Below are positions 53,191 through 63,845 of a stretch of 64,000 nucleotides of DNA, one piece after another (the stretch's first letter is position 1; the number at the start of each line of letters is the position of its first letter). Under the pieces are notes generated by a model, which saw only the letters and a program-made list of their open reading frames with translations, did no database searches and was not told where the DNA came from. Made by a program: the position numbers and the translations under genes. Source of the DNA: Paraburkholderia caffeinilytica (lineage in GTDB: Bacteria; Pseudomonadota; Gammaproteobacteria; Burkholderiales; Burkholderiaceae); the NCBI RefSeq assembly GCF_003368325.1, contig NZ_CP031467.1, forward strand, positions 3,720,001-3,784,000. The letters are read 5' to 3'.

Positions 53191-53826
53191 ATGGATCAGA
53201 TGACGTCGAACGTGAAGCGGAACGCCGACAGCGCCGAGCAGGCGGCCCAGTTCGCACGCCATGCCGCCGATGTCGCGACGCGCGGCAGCCGCGTCGTCGG
53301 CGAAGTGGTTCGCACGATGGGCGCCATCACGGATAGTTCGCGGCAGATTGGCGACATCATTGGCATGATCGACGGCATCGCGTTCCAGACGAACATCCTG
53401 GCGTTCAATGCTGCGGTCGAAGCTGCTCGCGCAGGCGAGCAGGGCCGCGGCTTCGCGGTCGTCGCGGCCGAAGTACGAAGCCTCGCGCAGCGCTCAGCGA
53501 CTGCTGCGAAGGAAATCAAGGAGCTGATCGAAACGTCGACTGCAAGTGTCGAAGATGGCGCCTCGCTCGTTGCGAATGCCGGCTCGACGATGACGGAGAT
53601 CGTTGCTTCGGTAGGCCGTGTAAGCGAAATTCTCGAGGAGATCAGCCAAGCGTCCCGTGATCAGAGCGCAGACATCGCACAGGTGAATCGCGCCGTCGGT
53701 GAAATGGACCTGGTCACGCAGCAGAATGCTGCCCTTGTTGAACAGGCCGCTGCTGCCGCGCACTCGTTGAAAGACCAAGTCGGTGAACTGCTTGAGGCCA
53801 TTTCGAGATTCTCGCTGCCGGCCTGA
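53191..53826 (+). pseudogene. Truncated methyl-accepting chemotaxis protein (signalling domain only)
   Basis: The 211-aa peptide is only the cytoplasmic MCP hairpin: [16 protein letters not shown], then [51 protein letters not shown] (hairpin tip) and the return helix ending AISRFSLPA. The sensor, membrane helices, HAMP and first methylation helix are missing, and the 120 upstream bases show no remnant. The initiating ATG is internal to the original gene, so it is a 5'-deleted pseudogene or at best a soluble fragment. Confidence 0.8.
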
Positions 53827-55168: not shown

Positions 55169-55792
55169 TTATGACAGGACATTGCGCTTACCCTGTTCAT
55201 CCCCCAAGTAGCGACCGACATTCGCCTGCGTTGCCTCGTCGCTCACGGTTTCCGGATCGCATAAACGGAGGAACTGCAACCCCTCGCACAGGCTGAGCAG
55301 GCCGAGTGCCAGACTTTCTACCGATGCGCCCAACGGCATACCAGTCTGATTTGACAGGATGCCAATATAAGCGCGGATCTGCTCAAGTTTCTGGCCGCAC
55401 AATGCATTGAAGTCGTCCCTCATGTGGGTCTCACGCATGGCGAGTAACATCGCGTCGACCCACAGTGGAAAACAGTCTGAGTCGTAGATAAACCGGCAAC
55501 AGTCCGTGACGCATCGTGATTCAATTCCTGCGCGAGTACTGTGCAATTGCTGGATCGCGTGTAGATGGGCGAGAGTCCGATCGTGATCACGACGCAGCAA
55601 CTCGAGCAGTATGGTCGCTTTGTTGCCGAAGCTCGAGTAAAACGCGCCGCGCGTGTAGCCGGCGGCCTCGACGATGTCCTGCACGCTTGCAGATGCAAAC
55701 CCTTTCTCGATGAATACCTCTCGCGCTGCCGCGAGCAGGCGCTCTCGAGTCAGGGACTTTCTCTGTTCATGCGATTCGTGTTTTCGTTGCAT
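55169..55792 (-). CDS. TetR-family regulator
   Basis: 207 aa: HTH about 12-60 (RERLLAAAREVFIEKGFASASVQDIVEAAGYTRGAFYSSFGNKATILLELL) and a C-terminal helical ligand domain (WVDAMLLAMRETHMRDDFNAL, ESLALGLLSLCEGLQFLRL). No partner operon adjoins it: the integrase remnant lies downstream and a DUF2147 scrap upstream, so its targets have been lost or lie elsewhere. Confidence 0.88.
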   Translation of the reverse strand: MQRKHESHEQRKSLTRERLLAAAREVFIEKGFASASVQDIVEAAGYTRGAFYSSFGNKATILLELLRRDHDRTLAHLHAIQQLHSTRAGIESRCVTDCCRFIYDSDCFPLWVDAMLLAMRETHMRDDFNALCGQKLEQIRAYIGILSNQTGMPLGASVESLALGLLSLCEGLQFLRLCDPETVSDEATQANVGRYLGDEQGKRNVLS

Positions 55793-56069: not shown

Positions 56070-56804
56070 TCACCGTTGCCGTTTGCTCGAAGACAATTGC
56101 TCCAACTGACGCACGAATGCGTCGATGAGGATCTTGATACCGAAATCGAACTCGCGGGCGTGGTCAAGCCGGCTAAGGTACGGCGCGGCAAGTGCAACGT
56201 GGGGAAGACCGGTTTCGACAAGCGTTGCCTCCCGCGGACCGGCGATCTCTGGGTCGTCGGCACCGAGCGTGAGGCCGGCTGATGCCTCGCGAAGCAAGGT
56301 GCCGGTCATATAGGCCAGCGTAGTCCGTACCGCGTGCACGGCCCATTCCGGCTCCGCGCCGGCGCCCATGAATGCTGCGAGCGTTACCTCAAGCGGGGCG
56401 AGATTTTCGAGTGATTCAACTGGCCGACTGAGCACGAGTACTGCGGCCTCCCGGTGTGACGAGAGGGCGGCGATCCTGAAGGCATGCGCGATTGCCATGA
56501 GGTCCGTGCGCAGGTCACCCGCGAGTGCGGGGACGACCATCCGGGAAAGGACCTGTCCCGCAACGGCGTCGAGGAGAGCTTCCTTGCTCTCGATGTGGTT
56601 GTAGAGGGCCTTCGCGTCTACCCCAAGCCGGCGTGCGACAGAGCGCAAGCTCACGGCTTCGATACCCTCGGCATCGATGACCTCGACAGCGGCCTGCACG
56701 ATCGCATCCCGGGATAACGTGGATGAACCGGCGGGAGGACGCCCACGGCGGGCCGGGGCGGCAGTTGGGCGCAAGCGGGGGCGAGGGGTTGATCTGGTCG
56801 TCAT
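56070..56804 (-). CDS. TetR-family repressor of MBL/MDR-VOC operon
   Basis: 244 aa, with a basic N-terminus RLRPTAAPARRGRPPAG (minor-groove contact), HTH about 30-78 (SRDAIVQAAVEVIDAEGIEAVSLRSVARRLGVDAKALYNHIESKEALLDAV) and a TetR_C-type ligand domain. It is divergent from the hydrolase operon, with 104 bases between the start codons holding two palindromes. Likely a ligand-released repressor of that operon. Confidence 0.92.
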   Translation of the reverse strand: MTTRSTPRPRLRPTAAPARRGRPPAGSSTLSRDAIVQAAVEVIDAEGIEAVSLRSVARRLGVDAKALYNHIESKEALLDAVAGQVLSRMVVPALAGDLRTDLMAIAHAFRIAALSSHREAAVLVLSRPVESLENLAPLEVTLAAFMGAGAEPEWAVHAVRTTLAYMTGTLLREASAGLTLGADDPEIAGPREATLVETGLPHVALAAPYLSRLDHAREFDFGIKILIDAFVRQLEQLSSSKRQR

Positions 56805-56824
56805 GAATTAGAGTATGCCTCGTC

Positions 56825-56874
56825 TTGACAATTAAATCCACGCCGTGGTTTTATGTGAAAAACCCACGGTGTGG
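56825..56874 (+). promoter_or_regulatory. Promoter with twin palindromic TetR operators
   Basis: TTGACA (56825-56830), an 18-base spacer and TTTTAT (56849-56854) form the operon promoter. Palindromes CCACGCCGTGG (56838-56848) and CCACGGTGTGG (56864-56874), centres 26 bases apart, are also mirror images of each other. The first sits between -35 and -10, the second just downstream, an arrangement suited to direct repression. Confidence 0.7.
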
Positions 56875-56908
56875 ATTTATTAAATAAAGACTGATTCAGG
56901 AGACCGCG

Positions 56909-58027
56909 ATGACATTGCTCAACGCCCCCCCAACGTTCAACTGGACGCCAGCCACCCTCACTGACCTGCCGACAGTCGGCGAGCCGATCAGGTCGCTCGA
57001 TAGGGACGTAGAGGGCGGCCCGGGTGCGCGATTGCGTGCTGCCCGCGAGGCAGGGCTGCGTTTCCGTTCGGAGTTCGCGACATCCGGTGTGCCCGCGAGC
57101 GTCGTGACGTGCGACCTCGTCACGCTTCCCTATCCGACACGGTTTGGTCTCTTCCGGGCGACGAAGGCGCTCGCTCCGTTTCTGTCGATCACGAACCGGA
57201 TGCTCGTCATACGTTGGAACGACAGTGATGGCCGCCCACGCGTCCTTCTGTTCGAGCCGAGTGATGTCGAGCTCGGCCGCAAGACGCCGTACTTTGCCGA
57301 GCTGCTTCGTCGCACGCCCAAGCCGGTCGCGGAGATGGTGACCACGATCCACGGTACGGTCCTCGGCCACCTCACGCGCCTTGGCATCAGACCTGAGGAG
57401 GTCGATTACATTCTGTTCGATCACCTCCACACCCAGGATCTGCGCCGCTGGATCGGAACGACAGCATTCCAGGACGATCTGGGCAAGCACACCGAAGCGA
57501 TCTTTCCGAATGCGAAGGTGATCGTTCAGCGCGACGAGCTTCTCGGTATGGCGAATCTCCATCCGCTGCAGACACCGTGGTATCAACCCGCCGCCTACCG
57601 CGACGTGCCACTCGAAGCGTTTCTTCCCATCGACGGCTCAGTCCTGCTCGGTCCGGGAGTCGCGATCATCAAGACGCCCGGGCACGTGTTCGGCAACCAG
57701 AGCCTCGTGCTCAACACCTCAACCGGAATCTGGGTGAGCAGCGAAAATGTCATTGCCGCCGAGTGTCTGACGCCCGAGCACTCCAGGCTTCCGGGTCTGG
57801 CCTCGTGGAGCCGGTCGTGGCAGCAGGAGGTCATTCTCAATGCAAACACGATCGAGACGACAGCCGATCAGTACAACTCGATCATTCTCGAAAAAACCAT
57901 TGCAGACAGGGCCCAGGCCGATCCTCGCTTCCTCCAGTTTTTCCCCTCAAGTGAGTTGACCCCGCTGTGGACGAACCCCGGGACGTCGCCAACGTTCCGC
58001 CACTTTGCAATTACTCACTCTGCCTGA
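56909..58027 (+). CDS. Metallo-beta-lactamase-fold hydrolase 1
   Basis: 372 aa from ATG 56909 (CAGGAGA upstream). Zinc motif HLHTQD (His172, His174, Asp177), third-site TPGHVFGN (His259) and SENVIAAE late in the fold; the N-terminal 100 residues are an extra domain. Related to lactonase and quorum-quenching-type MBL hydrolases but the final His of the standard HxHxDH is absent (HxHxxD then Leu), so the metal centre may be incomplete. First gene of the TetR-controlled operon. Confidence 0.85.
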   Translation: MTLLNAPPTFNWTPATLTDLPTVGEPIRSLDRDVEGGPGARLRAAREAGLRFRSEFATSGVPASVVTCDLVTLPYPTRFGLFRATKALAPFLSITNRMLVIRWNDSDGRPRVLLFEPSDVELGRKTPYFAELLRRTPKPVAEMVTTIHGTVLGHLTRLGIRPEEVDYILFDHLHTQDLRRWIGTTAFQDDLGKHTEAIFPNAKVIVQRDELLGMANLHPLQTPWYQPAAYRDVPLEAFLPIDGSVLLGPGVAIIKTPGHVFGNQSLVLNTSTGIWVSSENVIAAECLTPEHSRLPGLASWSRSWQQEVILNANTIETTADQYNSIILEKTIADRAQADPRFLQFFPSSELTPLWTNPGTSPTFRHFAITHSA

Positions 58028-58042
58028 AGAGGGCACATCTCC

Positions 58043-58600
58043 ATGAGCCAACGCACGATGCCTACGCCCGAGATCCTCGCCGCACGCGAGAGACTCGTAC
58101 TCGACCACTTCAACGACGAAGTCCTCCAGCAGTGGGATGACGTTCTCGCGACCTTCCCGCATCCGCACTACGAAATCATCGCGACAGTGACGGTTCACGA
58201 CGGTAACAAGGAGGTGCGCGGCTACTATCACGACACACGCGTTGCTTTCCCGGACCAGGACCACGAACTGATCTCGCTGCGGCACAGCCACGATGCGGTT
58301 ATCGCGGAGTTCTGGTTGCTTGGGACACACCTCGGTCCTCTGGGCGCAATCCCGCCTACCGGATCCCGATTTCGCGTGCGGATGACAGCGTTCTTCATCT
58401 TCGACGAGAACGAAAACCTCATCATCGAGCGGATCTACTTCGACACCCTGACGATGCTCAAGCAGCTCCTTGGCGGCGCCGGCCTGAAGAATCCGAAGAA
58501 CTGGCTGCTCGCCATCAAAGCGCTGCGGGGGCTGCTAAAAATGTCCGGCGAGCCTGACCGCCGCCTGCTCACAACGATTCCCCCGGACCTGGCGCACTGA
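58043..58600 (+). CDS. SnoaL/NTF2-like protein
   Basis: 185 aa, 15 bases after the first hydrolase. NTF2-like layout: LVLDHFNDEVLQQWDDVLATFPHPHYEII, VRGYYHDTRVAFPDQDHELISLRHSHDAVIAEFWLLGTHLG, RMTAFFIFDENENLIIERIYFDTLTML. Resembles polyketide-cyclase and ester-cyclase relatives. Might act on a lactone or cyclised intermediate made by its neighbours; no catalytic acid/base can be proven. Confidence 0.8.
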   Translation: MSQRTMPTPEILAARERLVLDHFNDEVLQQWDDVLATFPHPHYEIIATVTVHDGNKEVRGYYHDTRVAFPDQDHELISLRHSHDAVIAEFWLLGTHLGPLGAIPPTGSRFRVRMTAFFIFDENENLIIERIYFDTLTMLKQLLGGAGLKNPKNWLLAIKALRGLLKMSGEPDRRLLTTIPPDLAH

Positions 58601-58663
58601 GCCAGACCACTGGATTCATCTCATCGACACCCGCATCTTCAACACTCAAAAGGACTTCCGATC

Positions 58664-60226
58664 ATGACCATGCGTGCCCTTTTCGGCGGCACCGGACCCG
58701 ACTGGGTCCTCAAGCGTGACGCCGCCATCCCTGCCCTGAGTCTCGGCGCCGTCCGTGTCCGCATCATGGCGGCGGCCCTCAACCGGGCCGACCTCTACAT
58801 GCTGAAAGGAACGTACAACCCGAAGCTCAAGCCTGGTGATGTATACCCCGCCGGCATGGAGTTCGCTGGTGTCGTCGAGACATCGAGCCCGCTTGCTCCG
58901 TCTATGCCGGTCGGAACGCGAGTCATGGGAGTCACGATGGGGGCGTTCGCGGACTATGCGCTGTGCGATCCCCGGATGCTGCTGCCGGTCCCGGACGGCA
59001 TGACGTTCGAAGATGCCGCCTGCCTGCCTATCGCGCTCGCAACGGAGAATGACGCGCTCGTCACACAAGCCGGGTTCACGGCGGGTCAGTCAGTGCTCGT
59101 CGTCGGCGGGACCACGTCGATCGGGTTGCTGGCCATCCAGCTGGCCAAGGTCCTGGGCGCCTCGACCGTCATTGCGACGACGTCGTCAGAGGCCAAGCGC
59201 TCGGCGCTCCTCGAGGCCGGCGCGGACGTCGCGATCAATACGGCAACGGAATCGCTTGTCGATCTGGTGCTCGCCGCAACCGACGGAAAGGGCGTTGACG
59301 TGACGCTCGACCACGTGGGTGGCGCGCTGTTCGCGTCCCTGCCGGCCGCGACGAAAATCCAGGGGACGATAGTCAACATTGGCCGCCTTGCCGGAGCGGC
59401 AGCGAATCTTGATCTGGACGCTGTGTCGTTCAGGCGGCAGCGGCTCATCGGGACCACCTTCAGCATCCGCACGTCCGAGGAGCTTGGGCAGGTCTGCATG
59501 GCACTGCACGGCGAGGTCATGCCTGCAGTGGCTGCGGGGAAATTTACGCCGCGGATCGATTCGATCTACCCGGCCGAAGAGGCACTGACAGCCGCTAATC
59601 GCCTGCGGGATAACGCCGCGCTCGGCAAGATCCTTCTCTCCTTCGGGGATGCGCCCGAGCGTCCCGTCAACCGTGCGCCGATTCACAATTTCTTCGGCTC
59701 GATTAACCAGTTGGGTTACGTCGTGCGAGACATCGACGCCTCAATCGAGGGATTCACTCGGTGCGGCATCGGCCCATGGTTCCTGCTGCGTGGGGTAAAA
59801 CCGGAGAACTTCACGTACAAGGGAGCGCCAAGCGACATGGCGATGGACGTTGCGGTGGCGAACAGTGGCGACATTCAGATCGAGATCATATCGCCGGTCA
59901 ATGACGAGCCGTCCATGTATCGCGACTTCCTCGAAGCAGGACGCGAGGGGCTACAGCATTTCGCCTATTGGTCGAAGGACTATCAGTCGCTCTACGAGCG
60001 GGCATTGGCCGCAGGCTTCAGCGTCGGTCAGGAGGGGCAGCTTGGAGGTCCGACCGGCCGCTTCGCTTATCTCGAGACCGAGCATCACGCGGGTACGTGC
60101 GTCGAAATCTCTGACCTCGGAGGTGCCAAGGCAGCGCTGTTCGACTATGTGAAGAAGGCGGCCGCACACTGGGACGGCTCGAACCCCGTCACTGTCATTG
60201 ACCCGGCGATGCTCGCGGCACGCTGA
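58664..60226 (+). CDS. MDR quinone-oxidoreductase / VOC-domain fusion enzyme
   Basis: 520 aa in two parts. Residues 1-325 are a medium-chain dehydrogenase/reductase of the zinc-free quinone oxidoreductase type (GroES-like VRVRIMAAALNRADLYMLKG; NADPH fold LVVGGTTSIGLLAIQLAKVLGA, 144-165; ENDALVTQAGFTAGQ). After a short linker, residues 345-510 form a VOC/glyoxalase-like domain (INQLGYVVRDIDASIEGFTRCGIGPWFLL, LQHFAYW, GTCVEISD). The first metal His of a usual VOC is Gln here. No stop or frameshift separates the parts. Likely a two-step reductase plus isomerase/epimerase on one substrate. Confidence 0.88.
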   Translation: MTMRALFGGTGPDWVLKRDAAIPALSLGAVRVRIMAAALNRADLYMLKGTYNPKLKPGDVYPAGMEFAGVVETSSPLAPSMPVGTRVMGVTMGAFADYALCDPRMLLPVPDGMTFEDAACLPIALATENDALVTQAGFTAGQSVLVVGGTTSIGLLAIQLAKVLGASTVIATTSSEAKRSALLEAGADVAINTATESLVDLVLAATDGKGVDVTLDHVGGALFASLPAATKIQGTIVNIGRLAGAAANLDLDAVSFRRQRLIGTTFSIRTSEELGQVCMALHGEVMPAVAAGKFTPRIDSIYPAEEALTAANRLRDNAALGKILLSFGDAPERPVNRAPIHNFFGSINQLGYVVRDIDASIEGFTRCGIGPWFLLRGVKPENFTYKGAPSDMAMDVAVANSGDIQIEIISPVNDEPSMYRDFLEAGREGLQHFAYWSKDYQSLYERALAAGFSVGQEGQLGGPTGRFAYLETEHHAGTCVEISDLGGAKAALFDYVKKAAAHWDGSNPVTVIDPAMLAAR

Positions 60227-60246
60227 TTGCGAAAGGATTATCGGAC

Positions 60247-61074
60247 ATGAAGATCCATCACCTCAATTGCGGCACGATGCACCCGATCGGTGCGCCGTGC
60301 GGGCTCGTTTGCCATGTCCTGCTTCTCGAAACTCCGGGTGGGCTCGTACTCATCGACTCGGGTCTGGGATTGCTGGATGCCTCCCAACCCGGTCGACGGT
60401 TTGGGCCGTCACGCGCCTTTGTGCGGCCCGTGTTCGACGCGCGAGAAGCGGCGATCGTGCAGGTGGAGCGCATGGGGTTCGATCCGCACGACGTGCGGCA
60501 TATCCTGCTGACCCATTTCGATGCCGATCACGTTGGCGGGCTGGCTGACTTTCCGTGGGCGTCCGTACACCTGACGTCGGCCGAGGCATTCGCGGCACAG
60601 CATCCAAAGACGCTCGTCGAACGCGGCCGATACCTGCCCGCGGCGCGCGAGCACGGCCCGTACCTCGTCGAGCACACACCTCGCCAGTCGGAGTCGTGGC
60701 GTGGCTTCGCTGCTGCCACACCGCTGTCCGAAGTCGCCGACGGCATTGTCCTTGTCAGTCTACCTGGACACACGCGCGGGCATGCGGCGTATGCGATCGA
60801 TGCTGGCGATCGCTGGATTCTGCACGTCGGAGATGCGTTCTACCACCATGGCCAGATTGACGGCACGGGCGGCGCGCCGCTTTCACTGACGCTCATGGAG
60901 CGTCTGATCGCCCACGACTGGGCACGTGTCAAGGCTAACCACGAGCGGCTCTCGGAGCTGTATGCAACAGGTTCGTCTGATCTGTCCATCATCAATGCCC
61001 ATGACCCGGCGCTGCTCGAAGACGCGCGGCGTTCCATCGGACCGGAGTCTTCTGACAGGGTCAAACTGAACTGA
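60247..61074 (+). CDS. Metallo-beta-lactamase-fold hydrolase 2 (lactonase-like)
   Basis: 275 aa: MKIHHLNCGTMHPIG, LVLIDSGLG, zinc motif THFDADHVGG (His90, Asp92, Asp94, His95; the second His of HxHxDH is Asp, as in a known subgroup), LPGHTRGHAAYAI and HVGDAFYHHGQID, and NAHDPALLED at the end. Closer to acyl-homoserine-lactone-lactonase-like hydrolases than hydrolase 1. Last gene of the operon, 20 bases after the fusion gene. Confidence 0.87.
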   Translation: MKIHHLNCGTMHPIGAPCGLVCHVLLLETPGGLVLIDSGLGLLDASQPGRRFGPSRAFVRPVFDAREAAIVQVERMGFDPHDVRHILLTHFDADHVGGLADFPWASVHLTSAEAFAAQHPKTLVERGRYLPAAREHGPYLVEHTPRQSESWRGFAAATPLSEVADGIVLVSLPGHTRGHAAYAIDAGDRWILHVGDAFYHHGQIDGTGGAPLSLTLMERLIAHDWARVKANHERLSELYATGSSDLSIINAHDPALLEDARRSIGPESSDRVKLN

Positions 61075-61087
61075 TCCCAGTGCGCAC

Positions 61088-61128
61088 CAACATCGGATCG
61101 CCTCGAACCGAGCGCTGATTCGATGTTG
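61088..61128 (+). terminator. Long imperfect hairpin after the MBL/MDR-VOC operon
   Basis: CAACATCGGATCGCCTCG, loop AAC, then CGAGCGCTGATTCGATGTTG: an 18-bp stem with two bulges and one G-U pair, starting 13 bases after the operon stop. No T tract. Probably ends or protects the operon message before the outer-membrane gene. Confidence 0.6.
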
Positions 61129-61182: not shown

Positions 61183-61920
61183 ATGGAGACGACTTTGAAA
61201 CGAATTATCCTAACCGTCCTGCTGTGGGCCGCGACCTGCCAGATTTCATTCGCGCAATCCGCCGGACAACTGGTTCTCAACACGGGATGGCTTCATATCG
61301 CCCCGCAGAGTTCCAGTCAGCCAATTTCCGTCTCTGCACTGGGAAATACGGCCGTGGAAACTGGGACCGGCTCATCCGTGGGGAGTTCGGATACCTTTGG
61401 CCTCACGGCAACTTACTTCGTCACCGATCACATTGCCATGGAAACCATACTTGGTGTTCCACCCACGTTAGATCTATACGGCACTGGAACGATCGCCAGC
61501 TTCGGCAAGATCGGCAGTGCGCGCACCTGGAGTCCGGCGGTTATCGCTCAATACCATTTCGGCTTACCGGATGCGCGTATCAGACCATACCTGGGATTAG
61601 GGGTTACGTACGTCTGGTTCAGCCAGGTCAGACTGAGTAATACGACGCAGTCCGGTCAATTCCTAAACTCGCCAACGTACGGCAGCGCGCTGGAAGGACC
61701 GACCACGGCGCGGCTAAGCAGTTCGTTCGCGCCTATCGTCAACGCGGGCTTCACATACAACTTTAACGCCCATTGGTCCGCCGGCTTGTCTGTGTCGTAC
61801 ATCTGGCTGGCCACCCATGCCACCCTGACGACGCAGTCGGCGCTCGGCACGATAACGAGCCGAGCCAAAGTGACCATCAATCCCATTGTGACATTCCTGT
61901 CAGTGGGGTATCGCTTTTAG
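61183..61920 (+). CDS. OmpW-family outer-membrane protein
   Basis: 245 aa: signal peptide ending ISFAQ-S, then an 8-strand barrel pattern (QLVLNTGWLHIAPQ, TFGLTATYFVTDHIAMETILGVPPTLDLYG, ARTWSPAVIAQYHFGLPDARIRPYLGLGVTYVWF, NFNAHWSAGLSVSYIWLATHATL) and C-terminal VGYRF for outer-membrane insertion. OmpW proteins pass small hydrophobic compounds. Located after the hairpin; it could take up the hydrophobic substrate of the preceding operon. Confidence 0.9.
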   Translation: METTLKRIILTVLLWAATCQISFAQSAGQLVLNTGWLHIAPQSSSQPISVSALGNTAVETGTGSSVGSSDTFGLTATYFVTDHIAMETILGVPPTLDLYGTGTIASFGKIGSARTWSPAVIAQYHFGLPDARIRPYLGLGVTYVWFSQVRLSNTTQSGQFLNSPTYGSALEGPTTARLSSSFAPIVNAGFTYNFNAHWSAGLSVSYIWLATHATLTTQSALGTITSRAKVTINPIVTFLSVGYRF

Positions 61921-63458: not shown

Positions 63459-63845
63459 TTATGTTCGTATAACTAATTTATGTAATTTGATAAAAACACT
63501 CTGTTTTTTTGACAATATGGCGAATAATTCTTCGGTAAGGTATTGCCGGTCGGTGTCGCGAATCATGTTTCTCGCGATTGCCAGTTGCTGGATTTGCGTC
63601 GTGCCTTCGTAAATACGGAAGAGGCGAACATCACGGTAAAATCGTTCTATCGCGTACTCGGAAACATAGCCCGCACCGCCGTGAATCTGCACCGCGCGGT
63701 CCGCGACACGATCGCACATCTCGGAGGCGAAGAGCTTGCAGCACGAAGCTTCCGTCGACACATCTTCGTTGTTGTCGCGGCGTCGAGCACCATCGAACGC
63801 GCCGCGTAGATTTCCGCGCGGCTAGTCGCCGAGGGCCTTCCTGAA
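63459..63845 (-). pseudogene. 3' fragment of acyl-CoA dehydrogenase, frameshifted
   Basis: From 63761 downward the frame reads STEASCCKLFASEMCDRV, then AVQIHGGAGYVSEYAIERFYRDVRLFRIYEGTTQIQQLAIARNMIR, the C-terminal FAD/substrate domain of acyl-CoA dehydrogenases. Just upstream, in another frame, SRAEIYAARSMVLDA continues the same protein, so a small deletion has shifted frame near 63785. Everything further 5' (about 280 residues) is missing. A nonfunctional remnant cut off by a junction near 63840. Confidence 0.78.

Follow-up and report, generated by a model that had tools for sequence, protein, structure and literature searches.

Comparison with Described Systems

Among the described systems that come closest to the gene set examined here are a bacterial antibiotic cluster and a group of fungal detoxification clusters. 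The naphthocyclinone cluster has the metallo-β-lactamase (MBL)-fold cyclase NcnE/ActIV together with an NTF2-family protein and a TetR regulator (PMC10697411, in the part of the article available), and the Fusarium benzoxazolinone detoxification clusters FDB1 and FDB2 each have an MBL gene, with a SnoaL-like gene in another cluster induced by benzoxazolinone (PMC10512309, likewise in part). Here we describe a cassette in a 64,000-nucleotide stretch of Paraburkholderia caffeinilytica DNA (assembly GCF_003368325.1, contig NZ_CP031467.1, positions 3,720,001 to 3,784,000), the whole of which we call the window. In it a TetR-family repressor gene faces away from genes for an MBL-fold protein (MBL1), a SnoaL-like protein, a medium-chain dehydrogenase/reductase (MDR) fused to a vicinal oxygen chelate (VOC) domain, and a second MBL protein (MBL2). 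With a probability of about 55%, we read this as an inducible cassette, centred on MBL1, for the catabolism or detoxification of a hydrophobic ring compound of foreign origin.

The actinorhodin and naphthocyclinone clusters have an MBL-fold cyclase, an NTF2-family protein and a TetR regulator in common with the cassette, whose own TetR is ActR-like. However, those clusters are biosynthetic and otherwise differ in gene set, and the enzymes are likened by description in the available part of PMC10697411, not by sequence. The Fusarium clusters resemble the cassette as inducible sets directed against a toxic lactam or lactone with MBL and SnoaL-like genes, but they are fungal, differ in genes and order, and keep the MBL and SnoaL-like genes in separate clusters, as far as the accessible text of PMC10512309 goes; we claim no homology. 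We treat the parallels with the Fusarium and benzoisochromanequinone clusters as analogies. The MBL and VOC genes of PMC9782250 and the SnoaL-like and dehydrogenase genes of PMC12542777 could not be tied to the cassette from the portions of these articles at hand. No characterised pathway with the same gene set appeared in the literature searched, in agreement with a preliminary description of the locus.

Organization of the Cassette

The tetR gene (56070-56804, minus strand) is divergent from an operon on the plus strand consisting of MBL1 (372 aa, 56909-58027), the SnoaL-like NTF2-fold protein (185 aa, 58043-58600), the MDR-VOC fusion (58664-60226) and MBL2 (275 aa, 60247-61074), with intergenic gaps of 15, 63 and 20 bp. 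Positions and families are as first described for a TetR gene and four tightly spaced genes. The repressor passes both Pfam domains, TetR_N (PF00440, 43.7 bits against a cut-off of 24) and TetR_C_1 (PF02909, 45.9 against 21), and fails the NCBIfam model for the tetracycline-resistance TetR proper (NF010319, 78.5 bits against 265). MBL2 is a Lactamase_B family hydrolase (PF00753, 45 bits, gathering score 22.7).

The SnoaL protein passes PF07366 (50.8 bits, gathering score 28.4), which upholds its assignment as an NTF2/SnoaL protein, and has profile matches to 3f9s, IdmH, SnoL and AclR with a best E of 9e-8. Its likeness to the SnoaL-like polyketide cyclases and hydroxylases (SnoaL, SnoL, AclR, IdmH) consists of this Pfam assignment and these profile matches, though it is only weakly similar to them and some 30-40 residues longer.

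The proposed MDR-VOC fusion is real: a single 520-aa frame carries ADH_N, ADH_zinc_N and Glyoxalase_4 domains. The MDR part (residues ~1-330) is quinone-oxidoreductase-like (4dup, E 3e-40), and its best family is that of the PIG3-type NAD(P)H:quinone oxidoreductases (TIGR02824, 223.9 bits), from which it differs in falling below the subfamily cut-off of 296.8 and in being fused to a VOC domain. The latter (residues ~348-469) scores 61.8 bits with PF13669 against a gathering score of 27, and the putative metal ligands Q349, E407 and H432 are kept in 17 of 18 rows (one row has a gap) and E481 in all 18. Of 72 homologues of residues 300-520, 70 carry a VOC and at least one MDR domain, in a search restricted to proteins of ~286-910 aa and so excluding lone VOC proteins.

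Linkage across Other Genomes

An MBL1 scan of genome contigs gave 127 loci, of which the best 80 (numbered with the prefix L) were kept and compared with the window proteins. A partner was counted as present when tblastn scored more than 45 bits in the interval from -3.5 to +6.5 kb, with 15 of the 80 loci lying near a contig edge. Neighbouring genes were called with a simple script based on open reading frames and third-position GC content, which gives approximate gene boundaries and makes some frames too long or assigns them to the wrong strand. SnoaL is found near MBL1 in 44 of the 80 loci. The full set of TetR, SnoaL, MDR, VOC and MBL2 occurs in nine (L033, L036, L041, L044, L045, L048, L050, L053 and L078), belonging to Duganella, Nocardia, Gordonia, Streptomyces and Rhodococcus koreensis. 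TetR and SnoaL alone accompany MBL1 in 16 loci, and TetR, SnoaL and MBL2 in 15, including Pseudomonas L032. Since many loci carry TetR and SnoaL without one or both of MDR-VOC and MBL2, the latter two are optional members of the cassette; at L039, L049, L057 and L079 the MDR and VOC domains are encoded by two frames instead of one.

Even SnoaL can be replaced. A gene of the carboxymuconolactone-decarboxylase (CMD) family (PF02627) is present in seven of the 80 loci (L039, L042, L049, L057, L067, L080 and L089), and the 51 partner-bearing loci divide into 44 with SnoaL and no CMD and seven with CMD and no SnoaL, none having both or neither. MBL1 identity to the window copy is 63-83% in these loci, except for L089 (61%), which has VOC and CMD only. 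On a maximum-likelihood tree quickly built from 81 MBL1 rows this distribution needs at least five changes, a rough number given the weak forks. SnoaL and CMD look like alternatives for one place in the cassette, and we dropped the idea of MBL1 and SnoaL as an obligate pair because of the seven loci with CMD instead. The fixed four-gene route that reduces, isomerises and opens a substrate, as proposed at the outset, is not supported in view of the 16 loci with only TetR and SnoaL, the 15 that add MBL2 and the seven with CMD for SnoaL; this order of steps is possible for the full set, but the full set does not require it.

MBL1 and Its Metal-Binding Motif

MBL-type acyl-homoserine lactone (AHL) lactonases have the dimetal motif HxHxDH. 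MBL1 has no Pfam match, and the profile search and predicted fold identify it as an MBL-fold protein of lactonase type. Where they align, it shares 14-20% identity with the AHL lactonases (the P. poae lactonase, GcL, AiiB, AiiA and AhlX) and with 4-pyridoxolactonase, and it has about 60 additional N-terminal residues compared with them. In place of the HxHxDH of these AHL lactonases it has HxHxQD, as HLHTQD, in 200 of 201 alignment rows (the window, the 80 loci and 120 database proteins, some of them identical), the remaining row being a gap. Three distant homologues carry HLHTQD, HLHTQN and HLHTQN. TPGH is retained, and SEN stands where the bridging Asp is expected, at a position we infer. 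MBL2 also departs from the standard motif, with HxDxDH in 29 of 29 rows. Of the two lactonase-like MBL proteins first described, then, the folds stand and the canonical motif is missing from both. Scoring of 8000 candidates gave 1224 database matches to MBL1; among the 120 matches listed, none comes with a precomputed Pfam domain, and those with a name are mostly called hypothetical protein.

It is possible, if improbable, that the cassette quenches signals, with MBL1 and MBL2 opening AHLs or actinobacterial γ-butyrolactones and the remaining enzymes processing the opened product. Both proteins are closest by sequence to quorum-quenching lactonases, MBL1 also by fold, and 68 of the 81 rows in the MBL1 tree are from actinobacteria, which make butyrolactone signals. 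However, neither protein has HxHxDH, and both miss the NCBIfam lactonase cut-offs by far: MBL1 scores 27.6-30.1 bits with the AiiA, AttM, YtnP and 4-pyridoxolactonase models against 325-425 (at best 30 against 375), and MBL2 scores 36.7-56.8 bits with AttM, AidB, AiiA and YtnP against 360-425. We also know of no role in signal quenching for SnoaL, CMD, the reductase or VOC, which counts against this explanation.

Operators, Promoter-Like Site and Repressor

The twin operators of the preliminary description were found between tetR and MBL1 as the palindromes CCACGCCGTGG (56838-56848, operator 1) and CCACGGTGTGG (56864-56874, operator 2), which align with counterparts in nine other loci. The pair is present at cassette loci of both Actinomycetota and Pseudomonadota and at one place in its own 8.3 Mb genome, against 0 for the reversed control, with a start-to-start spacing of 26 bp in the window and 25-38 bp in the loci. 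Single exact sites number 129 in 1.21 Mb of loci and three in the 64 kb window. Where the nearby TetR is 44% identical or more, two exact sites are found in 31 of 34 loci, one in two and none in one; with a more distant TetR nearby they are found in none of 14. Loci with no TetR match have two sites in one of 32 cases (L037, whose contig starts close upstream) and one site in another. At the one of these 34 loci that has no exact site, Corallococcus L072, twin CTAC...GTAG palindromes are seen by eye upstream of MBL1 instead of CCAC...GTGG, and it is possible that repressor and operator changed together there.

A promoter-like site on the plus strand (56825-56854) was found by eye and not listed by the automatic promoter scan. 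It consists of TTGACA (56825-56830), also present at L032, L033 and L078, and TTTTAT (56849-56854), with 10 of 12 consensus positions and an 18-nt spacer that contains operator 1. The closest solved sequences to the TetR are tetracycline repressors and ActR, the latter over residues 28-230, suggesting that its ligand may be a polycyclic aromatic compound.

The same resemblance would suit a biosynthetic tailoring set for a pigment or antibiotic, recalling the benzoisochromanequinone clusters with their ActR-like TetR, MBL-fold cyclase, NTF2-type protein and MDR enoyl reductase, the last of which belongs to naphthocyclinone-type clusters. We give this reading little credence. An MBL-fold cyclase, an NTF2-family protein and a TetR regulator do occur together in the naphthocyclinone cluster (PMC10697411, as far as available), but no polyketide synthase was found in the genes scanned next to the cassette of the window or by eye in 40-52 kb, nor in the seven flanking genes scanned in L032 and L033. 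The surroundings of the cassette are also unrelated from one phylum to another, and a distant copy adjoins genes for a transporter and a GntR regulator.

Distribution and Origin

The operon is not common to the relatives of the window: 145 other relative genomes have no other full-length MBL1, with partial matches in 35 of them (best E 1.5e-7). The linkage expected among relatives holds in actinobacteria, Duganella and, without MDR-VOC, Pseudomonas, but not in the window's own relatives. At E ≤ 1e-50, one MBL1 homologue (41%) was found in 398 other genomes of the order and three (39-41%) in 397 others of the phylum, two samples that overlap. In the MBL1 tree the copy of the window clusters first with those of Pseudomonas sp. 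QS1027 and Duganella guangzhouensis (SH-aLRT 100) and then with that of Rhodococcus koreensis (97), all inside a group of 35 rows (96), 32 of them from actinobacteria. The simplest reading of these sequences is that the cassette passed from actinobacteria by horizontal transfer. OmpW and porin genes in the window speak for a Gram-negative host. No empty site could be shown, as the cassette flanks matched same-genus genomes in single genes at scattered places only, and no mobile element could be shown at the cassette. A plasmid origin was rejected, with only four plasmid records having an MBL1 match (59% over 86% for the best, from Rhodococcus koreensis); the plasmid matches of MDR-VOC were to MDR proteins in general, at 29-37% among the ten matches listed. 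A search of plasmids with 11.5 kb of the window found partial matches only, at 60-90%, in Rhizobium, Paraburkholderia, Burkholderia and others.

Other Settings of the MBL1 Family

The 39-41% MBL1 homologue in a genome of the window's order adjoins a 64% SnoaL, a major facilitator superfamily transporter and a GntR regulator, a setting that reads as uptake and catabolism. Another two distant copies lie beside short-chain dehydrogenase/reductase (SDR) genes, one of them also near old yellow enzyme (OYE) and 3β-hydroxysteroid dehydrogenase-like genes. In five loci from Nocardia, Mycobacteroides and Tsukamurella (L082, L083, L085, L088 and L090), flavin-dependent monooxygenase (FMO), OYE, SDR and acetoacetate-decarboxylase (ADC)-like genes stand beside MBL1, the families being named from L082, where a P450 gene follows MBL1.

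Both the distant copies and these five loci would fit MBL1 as a hydrolase of lipid or sterol-like metabolism, from an isoprenoid or steroid pathway, recruited into the operon. We consider this doubtful, since the SDR, OYE, FMO and ADC partners are not among the clusters common to the TetR cassette loci, a patchily distributed group with operators of its own. Anti-phage defence was rejected, as PADLOC returned only LmuA for MBL2 (E 0.003), which we attribute to the common MBL fold.

Neighbouring Genes

An OmpW-family outer-membrane protein gene (61183-61920, plus strand; PF03922, 103.5 bits, gathering score 24) begins 108 bp past MBL2. No plus-strand terminator-like site was found between the two in an automatic scan, and OmpW is possibly co-transcribed with MBL2. 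The idea of this porin as part of the set was given up, as OmpW is not in the cassette at the other loci looked at; in Duganella a TodX/FadL-type channel (L033:12184-13542) directly follows MBL2 in the slot of the window OmpW.

A second TetR-family gene (55169-55792, minus strand), with a BetI-like C-terminal match below the Pfam cut-off, lies just upstream of the cassette tetR. Also near the cassette are a likely truncated chemoreceptor gene (53191-53826), a frame with a methyl-accepting chemotaxis protein signalling domain and no sensor or HAMP part, and a likely gene remnant encoding a 100-aa acyl-CoA dehydrogenase C-terminus (63459-63761, minus strand), a stretch that matches many same-genus genomes at 70-84%.

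Proposed Mechanism

If the catabolic or detoxification reading is correct, TetR without ligand would sit on the twin palindromes and shut the operon, and probably tetR itself, by promoter occlusion, since the likely -35 and -10 elements flank operator 1, and operator 2 follows just downstream. A hydrophobic ring compound from outside would bind TetR and free the promoter; the substrate class may be a lactone or enone, and the ligand we favour is an aromatic-polyketide-like lactone or quinone. MBL1, as the constant enzyme, would perform the central ring opening. It keeps the three-His part of the lactonase site with the rest altered, and because of the Asp to Gln and His to Asp changes it probably holds one metal ion or a changed pair. 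SnoaL or the CMD-family protein, small enzymes of acid-base type, could then act on the opened or tautomeric product, and, where present, MDR-VOC (enone or quinone reduction plus a VOC-type step) and MBL2 (a second hydrolase) would extend the route.

Several points weigh against this reading. The loci were found with patterns from the window MBL1 and are biased to its close relatives, and counts are swollen by kin, with Lentzea making up nine of the 16 TetR and SnoaL loci. One gene is in two frames in two of the nine full sets (MBL2 in L033, MDR in L045). There is no partner in 29 of the 80 loci (MBL1 identity 52-64%), which means that members of the MBL1 family also work in other pathways, for example next to FMO, OYE, SDR, ADC-like and P450 genes. 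The 44% cut for TetR identity was chosen after the data had been seen, and the resemblance of TetR does not fix its ligand. Finally, no outer-membrane channel was found among the genes scanned beside Pseudomonas L032, and the channel type differs elsewhere (OmpW, TodX).

A bolder form of this proposal, unlikely but conceivable, is that MBL1 founds an undescribed MBL-fold branch whose rewired HxHxQD/SEN centre, with a single metal or a novel pair, does new ring chemistry and hands its product to SnoaL or CMD, two unrelated enzymes that can stand in for each other; the cassette would then be a mobile inducible device that lets soil bacteria of unrelated lineages detoxify or feed on one aromatic-polyketide lactone or quinone.

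Implications

The MBL1 family couples a predicted lactonase fold with an invariant non-standard motif, and the repeated swap of SnoaL for CMD is a clue to the reaction step that would come after MBL1. Furthermore, the defined operator offers a direct route to the substrate of the cassette, which repressor-ligand screening may identify.

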